DNA of 64,000 nucleotides, from NCBI GenBank assembly GCA_902827205.1, contig LR792634.1, positions 682,001 to 746,000 of the forward strand, read 5' to 3'. The position numbers and the translations under genes are program-made. Positions 24,979 to 59,697 of the stretch are shown here, piece after piece (within the stretch, counting starts at the first letter, position 1; every line of letters begins with the position of its first letter). The DNA comes from Methanocaldococcus lauensis (lineage in GTDB: Archaea; AGJL01; Methanococci; Methanococcales; Methanocaldococcaceae). The notes beneath the pieces are model-generated. The model was not told the origin of the DNA. It did not search any database and saw only the letters and a list, made by a program, of their open reading frames with translations.

Positions 24979-25109
24979 AAAAAAATGTGTATCTACCCTT
25001 GGAAAACCGTGGCCTTCATCGAAGCCATAACAGCTACTCGGCACGGCCGCCTTGTGGGTAGAATGTCGAGGTGGTTTCATTCCCTATGGAGGGTCGCCAC
25101 CTGAGACAT
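24979..25109 (-). ncRNA. GC-rich structured RNA, two stem domains, possible H/ACA-type guide RNA
   Basis: A GC-rich segment with no ORF. On the minus strand a TATA-like AAATATATAC lies about 26 bases before the 5' end, and the segment ends in T7 (24979-24985), so minus-strand transcription is favoured. First hairpin: AGGTGG/CCACCT (25097-25102 with 25069-25074) enclosing CCCT/AGGG. Second: TCTACCC/GGGTAGA (25056-25062 with 24992-24998) enclosing CCGTG/CACGG and a CTTC/GAAG tip, with opposed unpaired pockets between the stems. An ATACA follows the second stem, as the ACA box does in H/ACA RNAs. Family assignment is inference. Confidence 0.65.
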
Positions 25110-25156
25110 ATATTTATTTATTAAAAATGGGGTATATATTTTTTACCACAAAATTA

Positions 25157-26068
25157 TTATTTCTCAAGCCAGCCAAAGTATTTTTCTATAATATACCAAG
25201 CACCTTGAGGAGGGATTAAACCAACCTCTGTAATTATTGCATCTATATACTTAGAGGGAGTTACATCAAATGCAGGATTCCTCACTTTAATTCCTTTATA
25301 TTTATCTTCAAATACTACCACTTCCTTAGGGTCTCTTTCTTCAATCTCTATTAACTCTCCTACTATAGTTTTTGGATGAAATTTGTAAGTTTCTGCGGCT
25401 GTTAAAAAAGGAACTCTACTTTCGTTAGCAATTAATGCAATTTGAGAAGTCCCTATTTTATTTACAAGACAGCCGTTTGCAGTTATAGCATCAGCCCCCA
25501 CAATTACAATATCTATATCTTTTATAAAGTATCTAACTGCAGAATCTACTATTAAAGTTACATTAATTCCGTAGTCATAGAGAGTTTTTGCAGTAATATA
25601 TCCTTGGTTTTTTGGTCTTGTTTCTGTGCAAAAAACTTTAATATCTTTTCCTTCATCATAGGCAGTTTTTATAACACTTATAGCAGCTTCAGAATTGCAG
25701 TGAGTTAGTATTGTATATCCATCTTTTATTCTATTTGCCCCATACTTTCCTATTTTTTCAATAGCCTTTAATGAGGATTCTATAAATTCATCAGATCTCT
25801 CTATAACTCTCTCCTTTGGATTATCTTCATTTAATCCTTTTAATACATATTTAACTGCATTTGGTAAGGAGACAGCAGTAGGTCTGGCAGAGATTAATAA
25901 ATTTCCTGCCTCTTTCATTTTTTTTATAAATTCATCATCACTTAAATGAGAGATTTTTATAGCATATTCTTTTAATGCCTTTGCAGCAGCCCTCCCTATT
26001 CTTCCAGCCCCTCTAATTTCCATATTTTTAATTTTTTCATAAGTTTCTTTTATAATGTCTTCACTCAT
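25157..26068 (-). CDS. Ribose-1,5-bisphosphate isomerase
   Basis: Converts ribose 1,5-bisphosphate to ribulose 1,5-bisphosphate in the archaeal AMP pathway that feeds type III RuBisCO. The 303-residue protein has the eIF2B-like/R15Pi fold: IRGAGRIGRAAAKALKEYA, SARPTAVSLPNAVKYVL, ILTHCNSEAAISVI, CTETRPKNQGYITAK, DSAVRYFI and GADAITANGCLVNKIGTSQIAL. The catalytic cysteine (THCNS) and aspartate (VGADAI) are in place. ATG 26068 with GGTGCTTAAA upstream. It lies 20 bases downstream of a TIM-barrel gene on the same strand. Confidence 0.92.
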   Translation of the reverse strand: MSEDIIKETYEKIKNMEIRGAGRIGRAAAKALKEYAIKISHLSDDEFIKKMKEAGNLLISARPTAVSLPNAVKYVLKGLNEDNPKERVIERSDEFIESSLKAIEKIGKYGANRIKDGYTILTHCNSEAAISVIKTAYDEGKDIKVFCTETRPKNQGYITAKTLYDYGINVTLIVDSAVRYFIKDIDIVIVGADAITANGCLVNKIGTSQIALIANESRVPFLTAAETYKFHPKTIVGELIEIEERDPKEVVVFEDKYKGIKVRNPAFDVTPSKYIDAIITEVGLIPPQGAWYIIEKYFGWLEK

Positions 26069-59622: not shown

Positions 59623-59697
59623 TGGAGCCGGGGGTGGGATTTGAACCCACGTAAGGCGGATCTGCAGTCCGCTGCCTAGCCCCTAGACTACCCCGGC
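59623..59697 (-). tRNA. tRNA-Cys (GCA)
   Basis: A complete cloverleaf on the minus strand: acceptor GCCGGGG/CCCCGGC, D arm with GGGGCTAGGC, anticodon stem GCGGA/TCCGC with loop CTGCAGA (anticodon GCA), T arm GTGGG-TTCAAAT-CCCAC. The discriminator is U and CCA is encoded (59623-59625). No intron. In this genus Cys-tRNA is often made by the SepRS/SepCysS route; the U discriminator and GCA anticodon are consistent with either. Confidence 0.97.

Follow-up and report, generated by a model that had tools for sequence, protein, structure and literature searches.

A GC-rich stretch of Methanocaldococcus lauensis DNA lies between gap, which encodes a type II GAPDH, and the gene for ribose-1,5-bisphosphate isomerase (both named from family models, both on the minus strand), and it raises the question of whether an RNA is encoded there and, if so, of what kind. 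A preliminary description made from the letters alone had read it as an uncatalogued two-domain RNA of about 130 nt on the minus strand, either an H/ACA pseudouridylation guide or a new class. Here, the window means the whole stretch of DNA that was analyzed, 64,000 nt from a source genome of 1,479,331 bp (G000), and the positions in Table 1 are those of the window.

Conservation, strand and autonomy of the RNA gene

No Rfam family reached its cut-off over the RNA, either in the window or in ten loci carrying orthologs or paralogs. The best match in the window was to PyrR201, an H/ACA RNA, at chance level (15.9 bits, E 2.4, cut-off 49), and the best in the ortholog and paralog loci was to HgcG, whose name belongs to the series hgcA to hgcG, with 18.2 bits in L010 (cut-off 77). 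The RNA is thus absent from Rfam and, as supposed, uncatalogued. We found no description of it in the accessible parts of the literature consulted (PMC4652768, PMC5539422, PMC7668247, PMC7823788, PMC3608112, PMC7991803, PMC3491384, PMC8716108, PMC6705878). According to the accessible text of one of these sources, a GC-content screen in AT-rich hyperthermophiles by Klein et al. 2002 gave 10 candidates in M. jannaschii (PMC7823788); the RNA would suit such a screen and may have been seen earlier as one of its anonymous candidates.

A BLAST search recovered the RNA from 21 of 61 genomes, all of one order. A covariance model of the second hairpin (R1), built from 16 sequences in a plain MAFFT alignment in which 16 of 20 pairs had changes on both sides, matched 35 of the 36 genomes of the order Methanococcales, including all 27 of good quality; the sole miss (G034) is 54% complete, and the phylum-level search set consisted of the same 36 genomes. 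In a wider set of 297 genomes, the model matched 34 of 35 from the order and, weakly, 1 of 262 others, under strict filters that lose weak matches, so that distant relatives may be missed. The match outside the order (G177; 25.5 bits, E 0.02) lies inside a reading frame that looks by eye like an ABC transporter and was set aside as chance.

It is clear from the ortholog comparison that the second hairpin has been maintained as a structure. Among 35 aligned orthologs (30 distinct; the copy in G008 lies at C1:118051-118192), 17 of 21 domain 2 pairs changed on both sides, and the count of 98 compensatory cells was not reached in any of 500 shuffles. Sliding the partners by one column lowered the proportion of paired cells from 92% to 47-48%. 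This alignment was fitted to the model and hence leans towards the structure, and a plain MAFFT alignment that was not so fitted gave the same answer. Covariation is present in the lower stem, the upper stem, and the C-stem alike.

Folding energy alone is weak evidence and does not pick the strand. The minus strand folds at -41.9 kcal/mol (z -1.93, matched or bettered by 9 of 200 shuffles), with both domains of the preliminary description in its minimum free energy structure, and reaches z -2.66 (2 of 200) when two more 5' bases are included; the plus strand of the same stretch folds at -44.8 (z -2.59; 1 of 200). The strand call rests on comparison. The pair that closes the pocket of domain 2 is G.U in 28 of the 30 distinct sequences and A-U in two (L122 and L124), and other G.U pairs occur as well; on the plus strand these would be A.C, which places the RNA on the minus strand, where the ANA box and the T-run also stand. 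The better plus-strand z score could be cited in favor of a GC-rich fold that arose by chance or of transcription from the plus strand, and yet given the covariation, the G.U pairs, and the strand of both 3' elements, we regard either as extremely improbable.

The ends proposed earlier, 24979-25109, fit the minus-strand positions of the TATA-like element, the ACA, and the seven T, and the TATA box claimed at about -26 and the terminal T7 are both found there (Table 1). The start near 25111 follows from assuming 26 nt from the center of the TATA-like element. The stretch had also been said to lack an ORF, which is mostly the case; among frames of at least 40 aa, the sole overlap is a 55-aa TTG frame on the plus strand (25052-25219), and it covers the RNA only in part.

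Table 1. Features of the presumed RNA gene, with positions in the window
Feature	Position	Strand	Basis or detail
Whole presumed RNA, about 130 nt	24979..25111	minus	sequence, covariance-model matches, and ortholog comparison; ends inferred
TATA-like element AAATATATA	25133..25141	minus	sequence; some 26 nt 5' of the presumed start (near 25111)
Domain 1 hairpin	25063..25109	minus	folding; AUGUC/GACAU, then AGGUGG/CCACCU, K-turn, C-stem CCCU/AGGG
Domain 1 K-turn	GA 25095-25094, bulge AAU 25081-25079, GA 25078-25077	minus	folding
Domain 2 lower stem, 5' side UUCUACCC	25056..25063	minus	covariation; outermost pair U.U here
5' guide arm of pocket ACAAGGCG	25048..25055	minus	ortholog conservation
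Upper (GA) stem, 5' side, including closing G of G.U	25040..25047	minus	covariation
Domain 2 K-turn	25016..25039	minus	GA 25039-25038, C-stem and loop, bulge 25020-25018, GA 25017-25016
Upper stem, 3' side, with bulged C and closing U	25006..25014	minus	covariation
3' guide arm of pocket UUUCCAA	24999..25005	minus	conservation
Lower stem, 3' side	24991..24998	minus	covariation
ANA box (ACA)	24988..24990	minus	15 nt from the closing pair of the pocket
T7 run, presumed terminator	24979..24985	minus	sequence

Similar signals flank the orthologs. Counted with an octamer list of our own choice and without a null, a TATA-like octamer starts 37-41 nt 5' of the domain 1 arm in 11 of the 14 same-genus sequences (29, 14, and none in the others) and 35-36 nt before domain 1 in both sequences of genus g3. 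By the same count, 17 of the other 18 sister-family sequences have it 27-33 nt 5' of domain 1, the exception (L134) being one in which the hairpin was mis-picked. In the sister family outside g3, the RNA should by this spacing begin with the hairpin. On the 3' side, a run of at least five T begins 0-3 nt past the ANA box in 14/14 same-genus sequences; in the sister family, such a run occurs within 40 nt of the ANA box in 12 of 20 and is absent in 8. In G002 (L011 1391-1465), the RNA follows a tRNA gene at a distance of about 35 nt and the octamer list finds no TATA-like element, so that tRNA and guide may be co-transcribed there.

The position of the RNA between two genes on its own strand could suggest a cis-acting element, either a leader or riboswitch for gap or a trailer of the isomerase gene. 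However, among 27 genomes in which neighbors within about 1.5 kb were compared, gap adjoins the RNA in only two, both of this species, and the isomerase gene in 11, all in the genus, while the RNA persists at other loci, most of them with a TATA-like element. Since its neighbors change, the RNA is not part of an mRNA leader, and a cis-acting role of this sort is hardly credible. Other RNA elements were seen in passing, namely a flpD cis-regulatory RNA (RF01737; 45.2 bits, above cut-off) at 1182-1229 and a tRNA-Cys gene at 59623-59697 of the window, both on the minus strand, and a C/D-box sRNA like sR41 (L016 407-463; 43.7 bits, below cut-off) about 1 kb from the RNA at that locus.

A probable guide hairpin preceded by a kinked hairpin

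Productive archaeal H/ACA folds have a GA stem of 10 layers and an ANA box 14-15 nt from the pair that closes the pocket, according to the accessible part of PMC4652768. The GA stem of domain 2 has 10 layers as well, made of seven pairs, the closing G.U or A-U, and two GA pairs; some species have bulges or mismatches in it, and individual pairs are open in as many as 8 of the 30 distinct sequences. The ANA box lies 15 nt from the closing pair in 34 of 35 orthologs and 14 nt in L123, and it reads ACA or AUA in every one of the 35 rows. The K-turn above the stem has GAG and AUGA columns that are invariant in 16/16 sequences. Below the pocket, the lower stem has eight pairs, within the 8-9 bp or so expected of an H/ACA RNA, six of which changed on both sides and the outermost of which does not form in 19 of the 30 distinct sequences.

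The pocket itself is the most constant part of the hairpin, and most upper-stem pairs vary by compensation. It has two opposed, near-invariant arms, as archaeal H/ACA RNAs do, with GGCG in the 5' arm of 35/35 orthologs and UUUCCAA intact in the 3' arm of 34/35 (L123 is without one U). The opposed pockets anticipated by the preliminary description are thus present, at 8 nt (ACAAGGCG) and 7 nt rather than the 8-9 nt given, because the upper stem ends in an additional, closing G.U pair. An A-N-A (25055 and 25053) stands at the base of the 5' arm, with both A invariant in 35/35; target pairing leaves these two letters unexplained, as the adjacent letters vary.

The lower stem, upper stem, and ACA after the base that had been read in domain 2 are therefore all there, and the hairpin follows the published rules for archaeal H/ACA guides with the support of covariation. 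It is the same agreement with the rules for productive folds that takes away the suggestion of a new class. We conclude that the locus is an independent gene for an H/ACA small RNA of the order Methanococcales, predicted to act as a pseudouridine guide, and place the probability of this reading at about 0.85.

Domain 1 departs from this plan. The CGA and AAUGAAA that the preliminary description saw around a short stem are indeed there and are better read as a K-turn. Most same-genus sequences read GGUGG-C-GA-CC...GG-GAU-GA-AA-CCACC, which is a K-turn, and in the sister family except g3, the domain reads GCAGU-U-GA-...-U-GA-U-ACUGC or a near variant, which forms a K-loop, or a K-turn where the loop is longer. 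With a script that seeks GA...GA flanked by at least four pairs, a kinked GA-GA hairpin with at least five pairs was found 5' of domain 2 in 34/34 distinct orthologs, compared with 4.4% of shuffles. By our reading, the hairpin picked is the homologous one in 33 of 34; an overlapping hairpin was preferred in L134.

The sister family outside g3 has an additional helix between the linker and the 3' tail (UGACAG/CUGUCA, AGACAG/CUGUCU, AGCAG/CUGCU, AGGC/GCCU), in which a sequence's own partners form a mean of 5.7 Watson-Crick pairs versus 4.7 with swapped partners; for L116, the script's best helix is another one. The genus and g3 gave no such signal (2.0 versus 1.9), with the exception of L115 (G010). 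This sequence has a 7-pair helix joining linker and tail, as in the sister family, and its domain 1 is a different stem of 10 pairs with the same GA-GA kink.

Below its GA stem, domain 1 has no pocket, as only an internal loop of 2 + 1 nt is present here, and no 5' arm is apparent in the sister family. Counting on beyond 10 layers nevertheless leads to an ANA at 14-15 nt in 19 of 34 sequences, 18 of the 20 from the sister family and 1 of the 14 from the genus, the background rate being 9.8% at each of the two positions tried. This ANA is the A-N-A inside the 5' guide arm of domain 2, that is, the one with two invariant A, and domain 1 could accordingly be imagined as a Pyrobaculum-type H/ACA-like motif without a lower stem that borrows its ANA from domain 2, with the two motifs mutually exclusive and the RNA switching between two states. 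However, the spacing fails in 13 of the 14 genus sequences, including that of the window, and in the sister family, the RNA would start so near the 5' arm of the hairpin that a 5' guide arm could hardly fit. Moreover, the 5' strand of the domain 2 lower stem, which covaries with its partner, falls within the intervening 14 nt. A second H/ACA-like motif in domain 1 is for the first two of these reasons unlikely, and the two-state RNA as a whole is in our view very unlikely.

The search for a substrate

If the locus encodes an H/ACA guide, its fixed arms predict a substrate of the form (UU)GGRRR-U-N-YGYY. Conserved uridines of rRNA were scanned with a control guide alongside, the HgcG-like L091 of the same genome (G000:C1:40657-40800), an H/ACA-like RNA found by the Rfam HgcG model only below cut-off. 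Its pocket matches 23S rRNA UAAC-UA-UAACCC at 2020, which we infer to be the equivalent of L2015 in the accessible text of PMC4652768. This site ranked first among 518 conserved uridine columns, and 6 of 60 shuffled guides scored as well, so the scan is of limited power. For the RNA studied here, the best conserved rRNA site scored -12.18, and 45 of 60 shuffled guides were as good or better. Another scan gave a best score of -19.62 against a null median of -16.68 (60 shuffles), and in further scans, 18 of 60 shuffles, or 21.5% of 200, were as good. There was no convincing site, judged without a null, in the tRNAs of G000 (34 of 36 places, the other two being repeats) or in the SRP and RNase P RNAs of three genomes. 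Matching the pocket against stable RNA, the course recommended with the original proposal, has thus yielded no site clearly better than those of shuffled guides. A lack of complementarity had been named there as grounds for dropping the proposal, and although no clear complementarity was found, a scan in which shuffles equal the control this often can carry only so much weight. The guide is an orphan for now.

Two sites deserve mention as leads. The first, U642 of 16S rRNA (GUGAAA-UG-CGUU), offers 4+4 contiguous pairs in all nine species compared, a result equaled by 10 of 150 shuffled guides. The second is the best site found beyond mature rRNA (rRNA flanks, tRNA, SRP RNA, and RNase P RNA) and lies in the 16S leader of G000, 118 nt before 16S on G000:C1 (L055 position 1383), where GGAGA-UG-CGUC is complementary to both arms with 5+4 pairs and a score of -13.38. 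A like site, RRR-UG-CGUY with 3-5 plus 4 pairs, occurs 111-118 nt before 16S in 5/5 genomes of the genus examined. Given that the control exposes the limited power of the scan, the target may be an rRNA after all, missed because real pairing tolerates mismatches; this would be a special case of the guide reading, and we hold it to be possible, though on balance doubtful. At U642, only four of the seven invariant letters of the 3' arm pair, the other side needs two G.U pairs (three in three sister-family genomes), and the contiguous-pair measure that singles out this site did not put the control's expected site on top. The leader site is absent from the homologous place in 4/4 sister-family genomes, despite an identical guide there.

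Several other candidates were rejected: 23S 599 and 1621, where the U is not conserved; 23S 2725, where one arm is strong and the site is not conserved; 16S 840, with 5+2 pairs only; and two tRNA sites at -13.17 with no pairs adjacent to the U. In the comparison of site conservation, the 16S rows include one genome (G021) with an incomplete 16S locus.

Near-invariant guide letters for which no stable RNA target can be detected might also mean that an RNA with an H/ACA fold does something other than guide rRNA modification, with its pocket pairing to mRNA or another RNA or serving as an assembly chaperone, and with the K-turn hairpin offering proteins an extra platform. In 16S rRNA, positions 810-840 contain three stretches complementary to the two arms, as might suit a chaperone, and yet 27 of 200 shuffled guides do as well. 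Across four genomes, the full-length substrate pattern had 14, 18, 9, and 22 matches compared with 5, 14, 9, and 7 for the reversed pattern. However, comparison of all 63 matches showed six groups whose positions in homologous coding genes coincide or nearly so (five shared by two genomes, one by three, namely G010, G008, and G022, and none by all four), and common descent of the coding sequence explains these. We consider a role of this kind unlikely.

Related RNAs turned up in two genomes. G002 has a second, divergent copy (L022; C1:1225314-1225384; 47.4 bits) with the same stems and K-turn and other pocket letters, a change such as retargeting would produce, to judge from sequence. Its 5' arm pairs well with 23S rRNA of G000 around 2819 (-26.5), the rRNA of that genome being the one compared, and its 3' arm pairs little. 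A weak third match in G002 (L127; C1:1071069-1071139) resembles HgcE below cut-off (24.4 bits) and is perhaps another H/ACA RNA. In G000, an H/ACA-like RNA found below cut-off with the HgcG model (L095; C1:315821-315967) had no site beating shuffles (32 of 60).

A predicted guide particle and its relation to known archaeal RNAs

We propose that L7Ae would bind the K-turn of domain 2, while Cbf5, Nop10, and Gar1 would bind the pocket, the lower stem, and the ACA box. The 5' side of the substrate would pair with UUUCCAA and its 3' side with GGCG. The U-N between them would stay unpaired at the top of the pocket, and this U would be converted to pseudouridine by Cbf5. Domain 1 would provide a second kinked hairpin of the L7Ae type at the 5' end of the RNA, and as it is without a pocket, its most likely role is to cap and stabilize the particle. 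On the guide reading, the RNA adds to the small set of archaeal pseudouridine guides a conserved member that is absent from Rfam, has an accessory kinked hairpin kept across the order though its sequence has changed, and offers a testable 11-letter target specification. Identifying the target would reveal whether archaeal H/ACA particles act on constrained substrates beyond the usual rRNA sites; should the target prove to be an ordinary rRNA, the result would be a useful annotation only. A bolder picture, which we consider unlikely, is of an order-wide particle in which a single guide RNA provides two platforms for L7Ae. Its near-invariant pocket would then act on something other than mature rRNA or tRNA, be it an mRNA, another small RNA, or the leader of the rRNA, or would chaperone assembly instead of guiding modification. 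In the boldest form, domain 1 would make use of the A-N-A in the pocket of domain 2, and the RNA would have two states.

With the archaeal H/ACA sRNAs of Pyrococcus (Pab91, Pab105/HgcE, Pab40/HgcG) and Pyrobaculum (sR201), the RNA shares the lower stem, the two-sided pocket, and the K-turn, as well as the 10-layer GA stem and the ANA at 14-15 nt as these appear in the accessible text of PMC4652768. It differs from them in that a pocketless K-turn hairpin leads the RNA, no Rfam cut-off is reached, no target was found, and its distribution, in a search with strict filters, is limited to one order. The HgcG-like L091 of the same genome has the same guide hairpin architecture, but no 5' kinked hairpin was seen in its flank and its pocket has a match in 23S rRNA at 2020. 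As far as the accessible part of PMC3491384 goes, a two-hairpin H/ACA sRNA of Nanoarchaeum equitans is similar in having two K-turn hairpins, its own promoter element, and a T-stretch; however, it has two ACA motifs, one of which separates the hairpins, whereas domain 1 here has neither a pocket nor an ANA of its own. C/D box sRNAs likewise present a K-turn or K-loop for L7Ae, and most sister-family domain 1 sequences read UUGA...UGAUA, but we saw no C/D and C'/D' pairs enclosing guides, the C/D models applied being those of Rfam. Set against these systems, the RNA is an H/ACA guide of a known kind with an unusual accessory hairpin, and it is this pocketless, kinked hairpin that makes it a variant within the H/ACA guides rather than a new class.
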